Source of the DNA: Armatimonadota bacterium
GTDB lineage: Bacteria > Armatimonadota > Fimbriimonadia > Fimbriimonadales > Fimbriimonadaceae
DNA length: 64,000 nucleotides
Reading direction: 5' to 3'
Assembly (NCBI GenBank): GCA_016789105.1
Contig: JAEURN010000002.1
Span: 1-64,000 of the forward strand
Shown here one piece after another: positions 3,561 through 54,370 of this stretch. A program made the position numbers and the translations under genes. How positions within the stretch are numbered: position 1 is the stretch's first letter; the number at the start of each line of letters is the position of its first letter. Below the pieces are notes generated by a model. The model had not been told where the DNA came from. It was given only the letters and a program-made list of their open reading frames with translations, and did not search any database.

Positions 3561-4376
3561 TCACTTGATCCCGCTCATCTGGATGCCCCGCACAAACCAT
3601 CTTTGGGCCAAAACAAACACTACGACCATCGGCATGAGTGTGACCACGGCCGCGGCCATTTGCAGAGGCCAGTTAGTGGCCCCGTAGCTGTTCTTGAAAA
3701 TTGACAAACCCACTTCCAGGGTTCGCATCCGCATGGAGTTGGTGGCCAGCAACGGCCAGAAAAAATCTGTCCAAACGGCAAAGAAGGTGAACGCCGCCGC
3801 AGTGGCCAGCGCGGGCTTGCACAGAGGCATCACGACCTGGGCATAAATGCGCAAATGTCCCGCCCCGTCGATCTGGGAAGCCTCGTCCAGTTCGCGCGGG
3901 ATCCCCACCATGAACTGGCGGAGCAAGAACACGTTGAAAGCGCTGGAGAGCCCCGGCACGACCAATGCCGCATAGGTGTCCAACCAGTGCAGATCCCGCA
4001 TCAACAGATAAACCGGGATCTGGGTCACAACACCGGCAAACATCATCGAAGCGACAAAGAGGAAAAACACGGCATCGGCGCCCGGGAACCGGATCCGCGC
4101 CAAACCATAAGCCGCCAACGAACATACCACCAACTGCCCCGACACCACACAGACGGCGACGAACACCGAATTCAGCGCGAACCGGGCCACCGGCACTTCC
4201 GAATTCGTCAGCACAAGCCAATAGTTCTGCCACTGGGCGTGCGCGGGAATCAATTCGCCGTAATCCGGGATCGGGGCCCTGGTGGGATGCAAGCTGACCA
4301 AGACCATCCAGGCAAAGGGGGCAACAAGGAATGCCGCCAATGCAATCAGTGCCGCATATGCCAGCGCCCGGCGCAT
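3561..4376 (-). CDS. Carbohydrate ABC transporter permease, MalG type
   Basis: This 271-residue permease has six hydrophobic segments, beginning MRRALAYAALIALAAFLVAPF. It contains the cytoplasmic EAA loop (EASQIDGAG near residue 180) that docks the ATPase. It is the second membrane subunit of a CUT1-type sugar importer. ATG at 4376 shares a base with the TGA of the upstream permease (TGATG), so translation is coupled; longer in-frame starts run back into that gene. No ATPase subunit is nearby, as in many CUT1 systems that share one MsmK/MalK-type ATPase. Confidence 0.93.
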   Translation of the reverse strand: MRRALAYAALIALAAFLVAPFAWMVLVSLHPTRAPIPDYGELIPAHAQWQNYWLVLTNSEVPVARFALNSVFVAVCVVSGQLVVCSLAAYGLARIRFPGADAVFFLFVASMMFAGVVTQIPVYLLMRDLHWLDTYAALVVPGLSSAFNVFLLRQFMVGIPRELDEASQIDGAGHLRIYAQVVMPLCKPALATAAAFTFFAVWTDFFWPLLATNSMRMRTLEVGLSIFKNSYGATNWPLQMAAAVVTLMPMVVVFVLAQRWFVRGIQMSGIK

Positions 4377-5248
4377 CAAAACACCCCCTCGGACTGCCGC
4401 CAAACCGTCCGCATCGGAATGAGGCTAAGCAACAACACCACTCCGAACAAAATCACCGACATCGCGCTGGCCTCACCGATTTGGAACCGCTCCCAAGCCG
4501 CCGAATAGATGTGATAACCCACCACGTCCGTCGTCCCTTCCGGGCCGCCCTTGGTCATCATGTAAATCGGGGTGAACACCTGCATGGCCCCGATCGTCCC
4601 GGTGAGCCCGACAAAAAACGTCGTTGGGGACAGCAGCGGCAAAGTCACCCGCGAGAACTGCTGCCAAGGACTGGCGCCATCCAGCTGGGCGGCCTCGTAA
4701 AAGGATTCCGGGATGTTCAGCAATCCCGAGACATAAAGGATCATCCGCGGACCAAGGCCAACCCAAATCCCCATGAACACCAACGCCGCCATCGCCCACC
4801 CCGGCGCACTCAGAAAGTCGGTGCCGTCCGGCAACCCCATCCAACCAAGGATCGCGTTCACCAGGCCTTTCTTGGGCAGGTAAATGTAAATCCAAACCAT
4901 GGCGATGGCGACTTGGCTGCAAACCGCCGGCAGATAAAAAACCGTCCGGAAAAACGTGATGCCCTTCAGCCTTTGCGAGACCAACAGGGCCACCCCCAGC
5001 GCCACCGCCATCCCCAAGGGGACACTCGCCGCCGTGTAAACAAAGCTATTCATCAACGAACGCAAAAATTGGCCGTCATCGAATATCCGGGCAAAATTGC
5101 CGGTTCCGGCAAACCTCGGTCCACCCTTCAAGATGTTCCAATCGGTAAACGACAGGATGACGGCATAGGCGATGGGGCCGATCGCAAAAACTGCCAGGTG
5201 AATCAGGGCCGGTGCCACAAAGAGCCAACCGGTGCGCCGGGACTTCAT
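4376..5248 (-). CDS. Carbohydrate ABC transporter permease, MalF type
   Basis: This 290-residue protein starts MKSRRTGWLFVAPALIHLAV and has six predicted transmembrane segments and an EAA loop (EAAQLDGASPWQQF near residue 185). It would pair with the MalG-type subunit to form the translocation channel. ATG at 5248 overlaps the stop of the binding-protein gene by four bases (ATGA), and the next permease starts on its own stop, so binding protein, MalF and MalG form one tightly coupled operon. The substrate is probably an oligosaccharide or glycoside, inferred from the divergent GH2 glycosidase. Confidence 0.93.
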   Translation of the reverse strand: MKSRRTGWLFVAPALIHLAVFAIGPIAYAVILSFTDWNILKGGPRFAGTGNFARIFDDGQFLRSLMNSFVYTAASVPLGMAVALGVALLVSQRLKGITFFRTVFYLPAVCSQVAIAMVWIYIYLPKKGLVNAILGWMGLPDGTDFLSAPGWAMAALVFMGIWVGLGPRMILYVSGLLNIPESFYEAAQLDGASPWQQFSRVTLPLLSPTTFFVGLTGTIGAMQVFTPIYMMTKGGPEGTTDVVGYHIYSAAWERFQIGEASAMSVILFGVVLLLSLIPMRTVWRQSEGVF

Positions 5249-15024: not shown

Positions 15025-15134
15025 ATCAGTAAGGACGCGGAATAGCCGGCGGAGAGTCCGAAAAGCCTGATTTTTTTCCCTTTCAATCGCATGTATGAGT
15101 GATACTGTCTTTTGCTTTTTTGACGGAACCGGCT

Positions 15135-15761
15135 ATGGAGAACCTCTACCCAATGCAAGTCGATGCGGTCACATTTAGTGATGAGCAACTCGCAGTTCTG
15201 GCATCAGCTCAGTGTAATGAGGTGTTTGAAGCCATCCCCTACGCTCATGCCTCATCAATTCGTGAAATTGCAAAGGAGGTCGATAAAAGCACTGCTTCAG
15301 TAGGAGAACATCTTGTCAAGCTTGTCGAAGCTGGGCTCGTTTTGGCTGTTGATTCTCGCAAAAGACGGGCACGAGAAGAGACTCTTTACGCACGATCCGC
15401 TTTTCGCTACAACCTTGACCCCCTCAAAATGAGCGATAAATCAAAGGAGCTCTATGTCACCAAGTTTCGATGTGAAATGAGGCAGATCGATCGACTGCAC
15501 GCTCTCGCACAAAAGGGGCTCAATAATGATGCGTCCCTCATCGATCACATGCTCTATAAAAACTTTGCTGGTTATTTGAGCCCAGAGGGTGCCACAAAGG
15601 TTAAAGAAGCCCTTGTTCAAGCCCTCAGGGTTTTTGTTGACAACATGGAAACAGATCCCGCAAAGCGCGAGTCCGGTCACTACGTCCGAGCCAAGTTTGC
15701 GGCCATCTTAATGCCAGCCCAGACCGAAAGCGAACGCCGAATCAGAAAGAAAAAGCCCTGA
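15135..15761 (+). CDS. ArsR-like winged-helix transcriptional regulator
   Basis: This 208-residue protein has a DNA-binding winged helix in its first 90 residues: IREIAKEVDKSTASVGEHLVKLVEAGLV is a helix-turn-helix, followed by a beta wing (VDSRKRRAREETLYARSA). The remainder is a helical domain with no recognised ligand site. ATG at 15135 is chosen; a GATACT box at 15101-15106 lies about 28 bases upstream, giving a short leader, while the upstream GTG at 15099 overlaps that box. Codon use and base composition are more AT-rich than neighbouring genes, suggesting recent acquisition. The target genes are unknown; the downstream PEP-CTERM gene is a candidate. Confidence 0.82.
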   Translation: MENLYPMQVDAVTFSDEQLAVLASAQCNEVFEAIPYAHASSIREIAKEVDKSTASVGEHLVKLVEAGLVLAVDSRKRRAREETLYARSAFRYNLDPLKMSDKSKELYVTKFRCEMRQIDRLHALAQKGLNNDASLIDHMLYKNFAGYLSPEGATKVKEALVQALRVFVDNMETDPAKRESGHYVRAKFAAILMPAQTESERRIRKKKP

Positions 15762-15827
15762 AACAAAAGCCCTATTTGCCGGAACAATTCACGAATCCGG
15801 TTATCATAGCGTTCGTTGAGGACACGT

Positions 15828-16907
15828 ATGACCCATTTCCAACGCTATCGCGCGCTCGCCCCCATAGCCCTGATGGCTTGTGCAGCTGTTGCCAATGCAG
15901 AACTGCACTACCATGTGACCGAAATCGGTGGTTTGCCCGGAGCCGACCACAGCTACATTTCGGCGATCAACAATTTGAACCACGTTGTCGGCACCAGTTA
16001 TGCTCCAGGAACGAGCCGAGGATTTATGTGGCGAGAAGATTGGGGCGTGCTTGAAGTCCACCTCTATCATGCGGACTCTAGCGTTGCCACCGACATCAAC
16101 GACAACGACGCCGTTGTTGGTTTCATGAGCGAGAACGGATTTGAGCATGGCTTTACAACCCACTATGGCGGTTGGTGGTTTAACGAAGGAATCGGCGGAG
16201 TATCCGGTGGTCACACTCAAGGGATCAACAACTTGAATCAAAGCGTAGGCGGCACCGGTTGGGCCGAAGACGTTCGGGCGACCGGGTGGCTTCTTGGTTC
16301 GCCAGGGTTTGGCTTGCCAAACTATGGGCCACAAGAACCATCAGTTGCATTCCGAATCAACGACTCTGGTGAGAGCGTTGGCTGGGCGAGACTCGCCGGA
16401 CTGACCCGCGCCACATGGTTCCGGAACAACAACACGGTGTTCGACCTCCACGGGATGTTGCCCGGCGGAACCACCTCTAGCATTGCCAAAGATATCAACA
16501 ACCTCGGGTGGGTCGTTGGTCATTTCCAAGATGGCAACAGTCACTCCTACGGTTTCGTTTTCAACCAAGAACTCGGTATGCAAGTGATAGACTATGGAAC
16601 CGTTGGGCTCAACCTAAACGCGATCAACAACAGCGGCATGGCGGTTGGTCGTAGCAACGGAAGCGAAGCGTTGATTTGGACTCAAAACACGGGACTAATC
16701 AACATGAATTCGCTGATCGACCCCAATGATGGTTGGGATCTTGTAAACGCGATTGACATTAACGATAACGGATGGATTACCGGCCACGGAGTGCACAACG
16801 GTGTCTATACGACTTTTGTTGCGCGGCCCGATTCGGTTCCCGAGCCGGCGAGCCTATCAATCATCGCCATTGGTCTTGGCACCTTGGTCGCTCGACGGCG
16901 GCGATAA
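15828..16907 (+). CDS. PEP-CTERM protein with HAF repeats
   Basis: This 359-residue secreted protein has a signal peptide (ALAPIALMACAAVANA). It contains about seven repeats of the pattern [AD]IN[ND]xGxxVG (AINNLNHVVG, DINDNDAVVG, GINNLNQSVG, RINDSGESVG, DINNLGWVVG, AINNSGMAVG, DINDNGWITG). These are the extracellular HAF-family repeats that form beta propellers. The C-terminus VPEPASLSIIAIG followed by VARRRR is a PEP-CTERM signal for sorting by an exosortase/archaeosortase-type enzyme. ATG at 15828 follows GAGGACAC, a usable Shine-Dalgarno; TATCAT at 15802-15807 is the probable -10. The binding partner is unknown. Confidence 0.9.
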   Translation: MTHFQRYRALAPIALMACAAVANAELHYHVTEIGGLPGADHSYISAINNLNHVVGTSYAPGTSRGFMWREDWGVLEVHLYHADSSVATDINDNDAVVGFMSENGFEHGFTTHYGGWWFNEGIGGVSGGHTQGINNLNQSVGGTGWAEDVRATGWLLGSPGFGLPNYGPQEPSVAFRINDSGESVGWARLAGLTRATWFRNNNTVFDLHGMLPGGTTSSIAKDINNLGWVVGHFQDGNSHSYGFVFNQELGMQVIDYGTVGLNLNAINNSGMAVGRSNGSEALIWTQNTGLINMNSLIDPNDGWDLVNAIDINDNGWITGHGVHNGVYTTFVARPDSVPEPASLSIIAIGLGTLVARRRR

Positions 16908-49296: not shown

Positions 49297-51594
49297 ATGC
49301 CGAAAATCACCGAACTCCTCCCCGACTTGCCTTATGGCCCGGCTCCCGAAGATGCCGCTGCCGCCCTCACATGGCTTGATGCGCACAACCGGGTATTCAG
49401 CGCTTATGTCGGGGGCCAATGGGTGGCCTGCCCTTCCACTTTCGCCACGATAAACCCGGCCGACGGCACCGAACTCGCTCAAATTGGCCAATCGGATGCG
49501 GCAATTGTCAACCAAGCGGTTGAATCTGCCCAGGCGGCCTTGCCGATCTGGCAGGCCTTGGGGACGCAGCGCAGGGCGGAACTTCTTTATGCGTTGGCTC
49601 GGCAAATCCAGAAAAATTCAAGGCTGTTTGCCGTGCTCGAAACCCTTGACAACGGCAAGCCGATCCGGGAAACCCGGGACATCGACATCCCCTTGGTTTC
49701 CCGGCATTTTTACTACCATGCCGGGTTTGCCAAAATCGCCGAATCGGAACGGTTTGCCGGATACGGCCCGGTGGGCGTCTGCGGACAGATCATCCCCTGG
49801 AACTTTCCACTGTTGATGCTGGCCTGGAAAATCGCCCCCGCCCTCGCCGCCGGCAATACCGTTGTCCTTAAGCCAGCCGAATTCACGTCCTTGACGGCCC
49901 TGCTCTTTGCCGAGACCTGCACGGCTGTTGGCATCCCCCCCGGCACCGTGAACATTGTGACGGGAGACGGATCCACCGGGGCCGCGCTTGTTGACCACCC
50001 TTTGGTGGATAAGATTGCATTTACCGGATCCACAGAGGTTGGGCGGATCATCCGCAGAGCAACCGCTGGCACGCCCAAAAAGCTCAGCCTTGAGCTTGGC
50101 GGCAAATCCCCGTTCATTGTTTTCGACGACGCCGACCTCGATTCCGCCGTCGAAGGGCTGGTCGATGCCATTTGGTTCAACCAAGGCCAAGTGTGCTGTG
50201 CTGGGTCCCGCCTTTTGGTGCAAGAATCCATCGCGGATGCCTTTTATGCAAAAATCCGCACCCGCATGACCACGCTGAGGACTGGGAATCCCCTCGACAA
50301 GGCCGTCGATTTAGGGGCGATCGTCGATCGGACTCAGCTGGAACGCATCGGGCACCTGGTCTACCAAGGGGTTGAAGAAGGAGCGACGATCTTCCAATCC
50401 GAATGCGACCTGCCATCCAATGGGTTCTATTTCCCGCCAACCCTCCTCACAAACGTGGAGCCCGCCTCCACAGTGGCCCAGGAAGAGATCTTCGGCCCCG
50501 TACTGGTCGCCATGACCTTTCGCACGCCTGCAGAAGCCGTTGTCCTAGCCAACAACACCGCTTATGGACTTGCCGGCTCCGTTTGGACTCAAAACATCGA
50601 CACCGCCCACGATATTGCCGCCCAAATCAAGGCTGGGGCGATTTGGATCAACTGCACCAACCAATTTGATGCCTCGGCCGGATTCGGCGGGTACCGCGAA
50701 TCCGGGTTTGGCCGCGAAGGCGGGCAAGAAGGCCTGTACGAATACCTTAAACCCCTGATGCCAACCGCCCTCGGCGTGCAAGGGGCAAGCCTGCCCAAAG
50801 CCCCCAACCAAGATCGGACGCACAAACTGTACATCGGCGGCAAACAGGTTCGCCCAGATGGTGGATATTCGTTTTCTGCGGCCGGACACGAATTTGCCCT
50901 TGCCAACCGCAAAGACGTCCGCAATGCTGTCGAGGCGGCCGCCGCCGCCCAACCGGCATGGGCAAACCAGTCGGCATTTTTGCGAACCCAAATCCTCTAC
51001 TACTTGGCCGAAAACCTCCGGGCCGCCCACGGGCAGCTTGCCGACGCCGGGATCTCCCAGCAAGAGTTCGAAGACTCCATTGGCCTCATCACCCACTATG
51101 CGGCGGTTGCCGACAAATACGATGGGGCGGTGCACCAGGTGCCGCTCCGCGCTTTGGTCTACACCCGCAACGAACCGATCGGAATTTGTGCCAGCTTTGC
51201 CCCGCATGGCCAACCGCTTTTGGGTCTGCTTGCCGCCACCATGCCGCTCATCGCCATGGGCAACGCGGTAATCGCCATCCCCAGTGCCGAAAACCCCCTC
51301 CCCGCCCTAGAACTCGTCCGGATCATTGAGGCCTCCGATGTCCCGGCAGGCGTTTTCAACCTGCTCACAGCACCCCACGCCGACCTCGAAAAGACCGTCG
51401 CCGAACACTTGGGGATCGACTCTGTGTGGCACTTTTCTGGCACCCAAGGCGCAATGGCCATCCAAGAGCTCAGCGCCGGCAACCTCAAACAAACATGGTG
51501 CCTGGGAGATGGGCAACGGTTTGATGAGCCCCACCCAGAATTCTTGCGCCGGGCCGTGCAAGTCAAGAACATCTGGACACCCTACGGGGCATAG
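49297..51594 (+). CDS. Two-module aldehyde dehydrogenase, ALDH16-like
   Basis: This 765-residue protein has a complete N-terminal ALDH module with catalytic Cys300 (NQGQVCCAGSR) and Glu266 (LELGGKSPF), and FGPVLVAMTF near 405. It is followed, from about 510, by a second partial ALDH-like module (YIGGKQVRPDGGYSF...). The second module lacks a catalytic Cys and the usual NAD site. This order matches the ALDH16 class, whose bacterial members have a C-terminal degenerate domain. Its position directly after deoC suggests it oxidises acetaldehyde or a related aldehyde from deoxyribose breakdown. Confidence 0.88.
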   Translation: MPKITELLPDLPYGPAPEDAAAALTWLDAHNRVFSAYVGGQWVACPSTFATINPADGTELAQIGQSDAAIVNQAVESAQAALPIWQALGTQRRAELLYALARQIQKNSRLFAVLETLDNGKPIRETRDIDIPLVSRHFYYHAGFAKIAESERFAGYGPVGVCGQIIPWNFPLLMLAWKIAPALAAGNTVVLKPAEFTSLTALLFAETCTAVGIPPGTVNIVTGDGSTGAALVDHPLVDKIAFTGSTEVGRIIRRATAGTPKKLSLELGGKSPFIVFDDADLDSAVEGLVDAIWFNQGQVCCAGSRLLVQESIADAFYAKIRTRMTTLRTGNPLDKAVDLGAIVDRTQLERIGHLVYQGVEEGATIFQSECDLPSNGFYFPPTLLTNVEPASTVAQEEIFGPVLVAMTFRTPAEAVVLANNTAYGLAGSVWTQNIDTAHDIAAQIKAGAIWINCTNQFDASAGFGGYRESGFGREGGQEGLYEYLKPLMPTALGVQGASLPKAPNQDRTHKLYIGGKQVRPDGGYSFSAAGHEFALANRKDVRNAVEAAAAAQPAWANQSAFLRTQILYYLAENLRAAHGQLADAGISQQEFEDSIGLITHYAAVADKYDGAVHQVPLRALVYTRNEPIGICASFAPHGQPLLGLLAATMPLIAMGNAVIAIPSAENPLPALELVRIIEASDVPAGVFNLLTAPHADLEKTVAEHLGIDSVWHFSGTQGAMAIQELSAGNLKQTWCLGDGQRFDEPHPEFLRRAVQVKNIWTPYGA

Positions 51595-51598
51595 ATCT

Positions 51599-52540
51599 AT
51601 GCCGTATTTAGTCCGATCAGTATTTGAGTTTATAGATGGACAAGGTTTGTCGTTTGACGAAGGTGAGATTCGCTTTGAAATTTTGGGTTACCCTTCAATG
51701 CTTTCACTTGAATCTCCTATCGATGGTCAGACCTCCGGATGCAATGTAGTCTTGTCAATTGAAGTACCAACTTTGAAAAATGCGCAGGAAATTTTGATGT
51801 TAACTCAAAATGCTCTCCATCACTATATAGTCACCAATAAAGTTGGCTTAAATTTGGGCCGTTTTCAGCGAACCGGCGGTATATCACCGTGGTTTGCAAG
51901 AGTGATGCAGGAAGCCGATGGCCGGCCTAGGCTGAATGCATATTTTGGAAGCAAGTTGTTTGAGGTACCGCCAAGACCGATATTTGTTGATTTTTCTGCG
52001 AAGGTTTCTGTGATCCGTCAGGCAAAACTATTTTGTGAAGAAATTACTTCATACTATGAAGAAAGCAACTATTCAATGACCGTGCTACAAGCGATCGATA
52101 TCTACTCTACGTCCAAGTTCGAAAAAACTATCGAGGCGAAGTTTCTAACTTTGATTTATGCTATTGAGTCTTTAGCAAATACACAGCCGGTTGATGACGA
52201 TCAAATGCGAATCATTGATGAATGCGTAGAATGTGTCCGAAAGTCCTCGCTCGACACGGATACCCAAAAATTGCTGATGAGTAGACTAGGCTCCCTCAAA
52301 AGAGAATCCATCTCTGCTGCGGTGAAGCGGGTAATTCGCGATTATGTTCCGAGGGACACGGTCATCATGGGAGTCGATCCGCAAAGACTTTTCTCCGATC
52401 TGTACAATATACGGAGTAAGTATGTGCATGGCGACTTTGCTGAGTCAATGGAGCAGATGACAAAGTACTACCAAGGTGCTGAAGAACTGTTTCTGTCACT
52501 AATAATCAACCTTCCTAAGGCGAGTCCTTTGGCAGAATAG
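51599..52540 (+). CDS. HEPN domain protein (ApeA-like), AT-rich
   Basis: This 313-residue protein has a beta-rich N-terminal half and a helical C-terminal domain: IEAKFLTLIYAIESLA, then LYNIRSKYVHGD carrying an R-x4-H motif. This motif defines HEPN ribonucleases, and the arrangement resembles ApeA-like HEPN proteins linked to abortive infection. The DNA is strikingly more AT-rich than the flanking genes, with different codon choice, suggesting recent acquisition. ATG at 51599 begins four bases after the aldehyde dehydrogenase stop. No antitoxin or MNT partner is adjacent, so a stand-alone defence role is only an inference. Confidence 0.75.
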   Translation: MPYLVRSVFEFIDGQGLSFDEGEIRFEILGYPSMLSLESPIDGQTSGCNVVLSIEVPTLKNAQEILMLTQNALHHYIVTNKVGLNLGRFQRTGGISPWFARVMQEADGRPRLNAYFGSKLFEVPPRPIFVDFSAKVSVIRQAKLFCEEITSYYEESNYSMTVLQAIDIYSTSKFEKTIEAKFLTLIYAIESLANTQPVDDDQMRIIDECVECVRKSSLDTDTQKLLMSRLGSLKRESISAAVKRVIRDYVPRDTVIMGVDPQRLFSDLYNIRSKYVHGDFAESMEQMTKYYQGAEELFLSLIINLPKASPLAE

Positions 52541-52563
52541 TCAACCGGGCATAATCATTCCCA

Positions 52564-53655
52564 ATGCTCCAAGCCGGAATCGTCGGGCTCCCCAACGTCG
52601 GGAAGTCAACCCTCTTTAACGCCGTGGTCGCCAACGCCCAGGCACAAGCGGCCAACTTCCCCTTTTGCACGATTGAGCCAAATGTGGGAATGGTCAGCGT
52701 CCCCGATGCCCGATTAGAAGTCCTCGCCAAGATTTCAGGTTCCGAAAACATTCTGCCTGCACGGGTGGAATTCGTCGATATCGCTGGGCTGGTCAAAGGT
52801 GCATCCAAGGGCGAGGGACTCGGCAACCAGTTCCTGGCCAACATCCGCGAAGTCGACGCCATCGTCCATGTCGTCCGGTGCTTTGTCAACGATGACATTA
52901 CCCACGTCCACGGATCCGTCGATCCTCTGCGGGACATCGACGTCATCAACTTGGAACTCGTCCTCGCCGATTTGGCCCAGGTCGAAAAGCGCATTGAGCG
53001 CGCCCGCAAAGATGCCAAAACCAACAAAGACGCCAAACCCGAAGTCGAGGCCCTCGAAAAAATTCTGCCCCTGCTGGAAGATGGCAAACCCGCCCGCCAA
53101 GCCCAACTCGATGAGGAGCAAGCCTCAGCCATCCGGCACTTGGGACTGCTCAGCCTCAAACCCGTCATCTATGCCGCCAATGTGAACGAAGAGGACATCG
53201 CCACCGGGAACAGCCTCACCCAATTGGTTGAACAATTCGCCAAAGCAGAAGGGAACGACATGATCGTCATCTCGGCACAAATCGAAGCCGAACTCATCGA
53301 ATTGCCCGAAGAAGACCGAGGCGAATTCTTGGAAAGCCTCGGGATCACGGAATCTGGACTCCAGAACCTCATCCGCCACACCTATGACCTCCTGGGGCTG
53401 CAAACGTACTTCACAACCGGGCCCAAAGAAACCCGGGCGTGGACCATCACTAAAGGCATGAAGGCCCCCCAAGCCGCCGCCGTCATCCACACGGATTTTG
53501 AAAAGGGGTTCATCCGGGCCGAAACGGTCGCCTATGCCGATTTGGTTGAAAATGGCTCGATGGCCAACGCTAAAGCCAAAGGAAAGGTGAGATCCGAAGG
53601 AAAGGAGTACGTCGTCCAAGAAGGCGACGTCCTCCACTTCCTGTTCAACGTTTGA
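52564..53655 (+). CDS. ychF: Redox-regulated ATPase/GTPase YchF
   Basis: This 363-residue Obg-family P-loop protein has G1 [14 protein letters not shown] near the N-terminus, FCTIEPNVG (switch), [20 protein letters not shown] (G3), and a C-terminal TGS domain ending in [15 protein letters not shown]. YchF binds ATP more than GTP and associates with ribosomes. CATAAT lies eight bases before ATG. The 3' end overlaps the convergent PEP-CTERM gene by 11 bp. Confidence 0.95.
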
Positions 53656-54370
53656 CCGATCGGCGGCGGATCAACGCCAACCCGGCAACCGCCAGGCCGA
53701 CCATTGAAACCGGTTCTGGCACGGCTGCCACTTGCATCGAGTCAAAAAATACCGGATTCGAAACCGGGCCGAACAGCGCCGTGCTCTGGAACCCCCAGTT
53801 GTTCAGAACGGCCGTCGGGTCATAGGTGTCAGATCCGATCAGGACGTTGTCCGCGTACATTTTGGTTGAAAAGTTGACCGTGTCCACATCCAGTCGCATC
53901 AGGTGCCAAGTGTTCATTGTTGCGGCCGGGCCAGTGAAAAGATTGCTCCCAGATCCATAAACGAAACTGTTGTTGGCAATCCCGGCAAAACCCATGCGGG
54001 TTGCCCCCGAGCCTCCAAGTCCGAGAACCTGGATGATTGCCGAACCGAGGTTTTGGGTTCCGGCCGTGACATAAATCGCTCCAGACATGCTCAGAATGTC
54101 ATTCCCTACCGTGCGGCCCGACCAACCCGTCGGCAAGTGGATCCCTGCCGCGCTTCCGGTTGTTGGCTGCTGGGTGGCCATCCTCGTGCCCGAAAACGGC
54201 GAGACAATGCCCACCGTCCCAACAATGTTGGTTGCAGAACCGCTTTCGGACCAACCGCCTTGCCCGTTTAGGCTTCCCAGGCTCATGGAATCAAAGTTGT
54301 CTGTCCACACCACTTGGCCAAACGCGGCAAACGGCAACACGGCGAAAATCAGTGAAAGTGCTCGTTTCAT
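53645..54370 (-). CDS. PEP-CTERM sorting-domain secreted protein
   Basis: This 241-residue exported protein has a signal peptide ([19 protein letters not shown]), then [21 protein letters not shown], an opening seen in concanavalin-like jelly-roll PEP-CTERM proteins. It ends [28 protein letters not shown] at 54370 is preferred over a start three codons earlier because GGGGAGTGGAG forms the ribosome binding site for it. The jelly-roll fold would suit polysaccharide binding. Confidence 0.88.

Follow-up and report, generated by a model that had tools for sequence, protein, structure and literature searches.

The window, by which we mean the whole stretch of 64,000 nucleotides analyzed, carries on its forward strand a gene (P0001, positions 51599 to 52540) for a protein of 313 residues, which we call the HEPN gene on the basis of its open frame, relatives, and fold. 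It starts with an ATG at 51599 and ends with a TAG stop at 52538 to 52540, and the frame of 313 codons is intact. Pfam identifies its neighbors as the genes for DeoC, an aldehyde dehydrogenase (ALDH), and YchF. The ALDH gene lies directly upstream on the same strand (49297 to 51594; Pfam Aldedh, 1.6e-190) and encodes 765 residues; its stop codon occupies 51592 to 51594 and the HEPN gene starts 4 nt further on, so that the boundaries and the spacing given in the first-pass annotation were exact. Downstream, after 23 nt, follows ychF (52564 to 53655, forward strand; Pfam YchF-GTPase_C, 9e-39). No defense gene adjoins positions 51599 to 52540 and a protein search of its own genome found no second copy, which agrees with the earlier description of the gene as an orphan.

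The ALDH gene begins 6 nt behind deoC, and the HEPN gene follows ALDH on the same strand after only 4 nt, which makes co-expression likely. A consensus scan found no promoter between the last two. The suggestion that the gene uses a host operon is thus upheld as regards position, strand, and the lack of a consensus promoter, and transcription from the ALDH operon is probable. The same arrangement, 4 nt behind ALDH, would also suit an RNase of metabolism or the stress response that the operon has recruited and that is linked to aldehyde or deoxyribose metabolism. We consider this quite unlikely, since the relatives of the protein are found in unrelated contexts and the junction of ALDH and ychF is retained in four congeners, none of which has the HEPN gene there.

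Both ends of the gene have small elements of their own. A perfect palindrome of 16 nt, GGCATAGATCTATGCC (51588 to 51603), extends over the stop codon of ALDH and the start codon of the HEPN gene, and it is possible that it acts as a start-codon hairpin or an operator. Three perfect palindromes of this length were observed in the 64 kb, against 1.5 expected, and the region folds as RNA no better than its shuffles (z of -0.77). At the other end, 8 nt 5' of ychF, sequence comparison revealed a CATAAT element (52550 to 52555, forward strand) that recurs at about the same place before ychF in G003, G005, G006, and G007. It is likely the -10 box of ychF, left intact next to the insert, and its position suggests that the ychF message is nearly leaderless. 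In G007, G005, and G006 there are also G+C-rich palindromic repeats, some 70 to 80 nt long, before ychF (loci L051, L055, and L056). These repeats are similar to one another and are perhaps a mobile repeat element.

The sharp shift in composition noticed in the first pass coincides with the gene. A maximum-likelihood split of positions 49300 to 54300 into two compositions delimits an AT-rich segment from 51591 to 52565; its GC content is 0.428, against 0.587 for the remainder of that stretch, and the log-likelihood gain is 40. When all 942-nt sliding windows were considered (step of 50), the one at 51601 had the lowest GC of the 64 kb. The HEPN gene itself has a GC content of 0.429, whereas 54 other non-overlapping open reading frames average 0.587 (standard deviation of 0.027, minimum of 0.486), in a list that was chosen by length and hence contains some shadow frames. 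The minimum belongs to the reading frames at 15099 to 15761 and 15816 to 16907; the former encodes a protein of 220 residues with weak helix-turn-helix matches, and the latter a DUF3466/PEP-CTERM protein.

At the insert we found no transposase, integrase, or clear flanking repeat that would show its route of arrival, and the direct repeats flanking it did not exceed chance-level pairs. We then turn to the relatives of the host. A protein search of 101 genomes (that of the host and those of 100 relatives, including 7 congeners) revealed no close homologue in the relatives, the sole match being the copy in the window. The gene ychF is present in all eight genomes of the genus (own genome counted) and a clear ALDH orthologue in seven of them; in G002 the best ALDH match is only 44% identical. 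The two genes are adjacent in five of these genomes, i.e., in its own and in G001, G003, G004, and G007, whose junctions we compared (loci L051 to L054). Two of these junctions are free of genes, with about 34 nt in G004 and about 105 nt in G007. The other two hold one AT-rich gene each on the same strand, encoding an M48 peptidase of 378 residues in G003 and a PEP-CTERM protein of 365 residues in G001, which ends in the same kind of motif as the protein encoded at 15816 to 16907 in the window. In G005 and G006 ALDH and ychF are separated, and in G002 ychF is at the end of a contig. Within the genus, the junction between ALDH and ychF is a variable site of small size, which holds different single genes in different species. 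The empty junctions in congeners, the lack of a close homologue in the 100 relatives, and the shift in composition together establish a horizontal gain of the HEPN gene, as had been proposed, and place it, by these comparisons, after the origin of the genus.

What does the gene encode? HEPN RNases are described as ending helix 3 with an R-x4-6-H motif, whose arginine is followed by a polar residue, and as having an acidic residue in helix 2 (PMC3710099). The R-x4-H motif of the 313-residue protein is R272-S-K-Y-V-H277 (52412 to 52429, forward strand), with the arginine in a predicted helix (residues 261 to 276), the histidine just behind it, and a polar serine after the arginine. The acidic residue of the second HEPN helix is Glu190 (codon at 52166 to 52168, forward strand), in a predicted helix spanning residues 178 to 190. 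A structure model built from 7 sequences (mean pLDDT of 74, pTM of 0.71) divides the protein into two parts. The N-terminal region, approximately residues 1 to 140 (51599 to 52018, forward strand), has a small strand-helix domain (strands 3-11, 23-28, 31-38, and 48-56; helix 59-80) and a low-confidence stretch (87-139). The C-terminal part, approximately residues 141 to 305 (52019 to 52513, forward strand), is a well-modeled helical domain.

The comparison of this model with solved structures points in the same direction. Foldseek gave no match in the PDB at an E value of 0.001 or less. When its 1000 highest chains were aligned with VIA-align, the eight best rows were all HEPN toxins or HEPN-type nucleotidyltransferase partners (Z of 9.7 to 6.8, model residues 155 to 310); the following row drops to 4.8, and the HEPN RNase RnlA is found at 4.2. 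The tool itself cautions that Z values below about 13 can arise by chance for helical bundles, yet an unbroken series of HEPN rows on top, with a gap below, would not be expected by chance. We also modeled a second family member (L014), which was compared with the PDB via the VIA list only. Its best row is the HEPN RNase Csm6 (PDB 6tug; Z of 7.7, 135 residues, rmsd of 5.5), and the second is an unrelated helical protein (Z of 6.8). Searches of a viral library with both models gave no Foldseek match at an E value of 0.001 or less. Motif, helix order, and fold (the latter as predicted in the two models, not from a solved structure) lead us to regard the 313-residue protein as a HEPN protein. The earlier assignment to HEPN is therefore strengthened by the motif, the acidic residue, the fold match, and the conservation in the relatives described below.

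The N-terminal region is a putative sensor. Its counterpart in L014 matches folds that we take to be ACT/ferredoxin-like alpha/beta, which may suggest such a domain; these rows have Z values of 4 to 6, below the level that is meaningful alone.

Searches of the usual libraries returned little. No model of Pfam, NCBIfam, or PADLOC (PADLOC-DB 2.0.0) matched the 313-residue protein at an E value of 10 or less. PHROGs gave two chance-level matches, and tblastn against phages one chance match (E value of 1). Among viral contigs, none matched the protein or query A3, and profile A2 matched one locus, which was kept out of the family. Among PDB sequences, the family profile found none and the single protein found chance matches only. 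We did find 12 relatives, spread over several phyla, with 17 to 27% identity to the protein (10 measured). The first is encoded by an Arthrobacter plasmid; 231 columns of the pair align, with 25% identity and an E value of 2e-20. The others are G021 and G229 from the window's own phylum, an Alteromonas plasmid, six loci (L011 to L016) from one scan of bacterial genomes, and G870 and G1025 from a search in the phylum of a Planctomycetales member. G229 was included in profile A2, and its score with that profile is by construction. With PADLOC-DB 2.0.0, neither G021 nor G229 had a match, and the Arthrobacter relative had a single one at chance level (E value of 0.055). The family is thus undescribed in the sense that it is absent from Pfam, NCBIfam, PADLOC, and the literature searched.

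Several candidates were considered and kept out of the family. These are a Clostridia locus (L017), two genomes with E values of about 0.003 (G099 and G210), and four with weak single-sequence matches (G035, G045, G083, and G260). A further one, L018, was left out because its hhalign match (E value of 1.9e-5) covers just 46 columns around the motif used for its retrieval. It is a gene for a protein of 330 residues (4209 to 5201 of its contig, motif AYNIRSKYVHGD), located between tail and endolysin genes of a tailed-phage contig, a placement that might fit a phage-borne HEPN gene.

In the alignment of the family, Glu190, Ser237, Tyr269, Arg272, His277, and Gly278 are invariant in 13 of 13 members. 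The loci L011 to L016 were retrieved with a pattern containing RS..VH and have the motif by construction, so that conservation of its arginine and histidine counts independently only in the 313-residue protein and the six relatives found without the pattern (the Arthrobacter and Alteromonas plasmids, G021, G229, G870, and G1025). The motif is retained throughout these homologues. Because the active site is conserved, the protein is very likely an RNase. The conservation also bears on whether the gene is a functionless passenger, brought in by a chance transfer and now decaying. Such a passenger would be consistent with the protein's long branch, of 3.39 changes per column, in the tree of the family and with a junction that varies within the genus. 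We think it very unlikely, for the open frame is full-length and all six family-invariant residues are retained. The tree of the 13 members gives no firm placement of the 313-residue protein.

The family is rare. In the window's phylum, 5 of 291 genomes have a match at an E value of 0.01 or less (one is the genome of the window, and two have weak matches), which is not the pattern of a gene conserved vertically across the phylum. With the motif also kept in the homologues, neither of the outcomes that would have refuted the first-pass annotation was observed. In the class of L014, the only match in 369 genomes is the seed itself, and in the phylum of L012 there are three in 392, seed counted. 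Each of the six genomes behind L011 to L016 has a single copy.

How does the family relate to known HEPN systems? The first-pass annotation called the protein ApeA-like, and this holds only in part. Like ApeA, it has its HEPN domain with an R-x4-H at the C-terminal end, and hhalign of the family against four proteins of HEPN_Apea (PF18739), taken from the window's phylum, gave a weak link, with an E value of 4.2e-4 and a probability of 34%, over the HEPN domain only and motif on motif (a control with YchF gave 0.6). On the other hand, PF18739 does not match the 313-residue protein; it places none of the 13 members over its cut-off of 24.4 bits and one below it, at 18.7 bits. The residue after the arginine is a serine in 12 of the 13 members (asparagine in one), whereas it is an asparagine in the four aligned PF18739 proteins. 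The N-terminal part differs too, with about 140 residues, from ApeA-NTD1, which is described as a mostly beta N-terminal domain of about 300 residues (PMC3710099). With scores below the Pfam cut-off and the long beta-rich N-terminal domain absent, we do not classify it as ApeA; the protein is a HEPN protein in a family of its own.

The closest layout is that of Tha. Tha-1 is described as a protein of 301 residues with a C-terminal HEPN domain (R265NSIMH270), a non-specific RNase set off by phage tail proteins (PMC11087260). Both are single proteins of similar length (301 and 313 residues) with an unrecognized N-terminal half and a C-terminal HEPN domain whose R-x4-H is near the end. They differ in that Tha is borne on Staphylococcus aureus prophages (PMC11087260), whereas our gene lies between housekeeping genes. 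Similarity of sequence was not found by hhalign (E value of 0.52, with a single Tha-1 sequence and hence low power).

Csm6, the best row for L014, is a ligand-activated HEPN RNase in which a sensor domain, of the CARF type, precedes the HEPN, and its context is type III CRISPR. Neither a CARF sensor nor a type III CRISPR context was found for our family.

The closest solved folds to the C-terminal domain are the HEPN toxins of HEPN-MNT pairs (PDB 8yuf, 8xdj, 8xeh, and 6m6u; Z of 8.4 to 9.7 over 100 to 109 residues). The protein could accordingly be conceived as the toxin of a toxin-antitoxin pair, silenced by a separate antitoxin. This is improbable for several reasons. The HEPN-MNT toxins consist of the HEPN domain alone and have the gene of a nucleotidyltransferase antitoxin alongside, whereas no such gene is present at the ALDH and ychF flanks, where gaps of 4 and 23 nt leave no room for it, and no such partner is common to the 13 loci. 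The protein is also more than twice as long as the listed solo HEPN toxins (130 to 135 residues). When all reading frames within 6 kb were compared with one another, no neighbor family proved to be shared among the 13 loci, except HsdM in two of them. Hence, no fixed antitoxin or partner travels with the gene at these loci.

The neighborhoods of the relatives bear on the function. The Arthrobacter plasmid relative adjoins a Tn3 transposase and SIR2, and the Alteromonas plasmid relative an integrase, a reverse transcriptase, and type I restriction. The family member in L013 overlaps at its start with an upstream AbiV gene; the two (290 to 2105) are possibly a pair of HEPN proteins. The L014 relative adjoins Tn7-like transposition genes. 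G021 has a large serine recombinase and a set of type I restriction genes, and its HEPN gene comes immediately after hsdS, at a distance of 2 nt. Neighbors of the defense or mobile-element kind (restriction, AbiV, SIR2, transposon genes) are thus found in 5 of the 12 relatives, a plain count, so that an enrichment is an impression and not a statistic. Neighbors that are at most suggestive were found in L012 (an FtsK-like ATPase) and L016 (an ion-channel protein), and none recognized as of this kind in L011, L015, G229, G870, and G1025. The earlier proposal of a defense gene is therefore plausible from the five relatives, with the reservation that the other seven, and the window gene itself, have no recognized defense gene alongside.

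The restriction loci raise the possibility of a PrrC-like accessory that fires when the restriction system is disabled, the copy in the window having lost its former partner. The two relatives in type I restriction loci, one of them right behind hsdS, and the known links of HEPN genes with restriction operons (PMC3710099) speak for it. We find it unlikely, since 11 of the 13 loci, window counted, have no restriction genes in the stretch that was read, which is short in several contigs.

We consider it reasonably probable, from these neighbors and the layout of Tha, that the protein is a self-contained HEPN RNase, which is triggered by infection and works through abortive infection. Its HEPN domain, at the C-terminal end, would dimerize and form an RNA-cutting site from Arg272 and His277, with the assistance of Glu190. 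The N-terminal region would keep the RNase latent until infection is signaled to it, e.g., by a phage protein or a nucleotide freed during infection. The active dimer would then cut cellular RNA, halting both the cell and the phage. The gene would have arrived by horizontal transfer directly behind ALDH, and would probably be transcribed from its operon. We hold more tentatively to a further reading, in which the protein and its relatives make up an undescribed and rare family of anti-phage proteins, each encoded by one gene. In these, the C-terminal HEPN RNase would be under the direct control of an alpha/beta sensor at the N-terminal end, perhaps a ligand-binding domain of the ACT or ferredoxin type, and would answer to a trigger of its own. 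Such a family could have reached different phyla on plasmids and on Tn3- and Tn7-like elements, and also through isolated insertions into chromosomes.

The self-contained HEPN RNase proposed here belongs to a well-known kind of effector, of which the family is an unlisted variant: useful for defense finders, but no surprise in kind. Since it escapes Pfam, NCBIfam, and PADLOC, defense finders based on such models will miss it. The gene in the window is a lone gene of the defense type, located between housekeeping genes and outside any island, and, being one small gene, it lends itself to testing in isolation. Few effectors are used as widely in bacterial immunity as HEPN RNases, and each new family with a sensor half of its own can reveal a new signal of infection.
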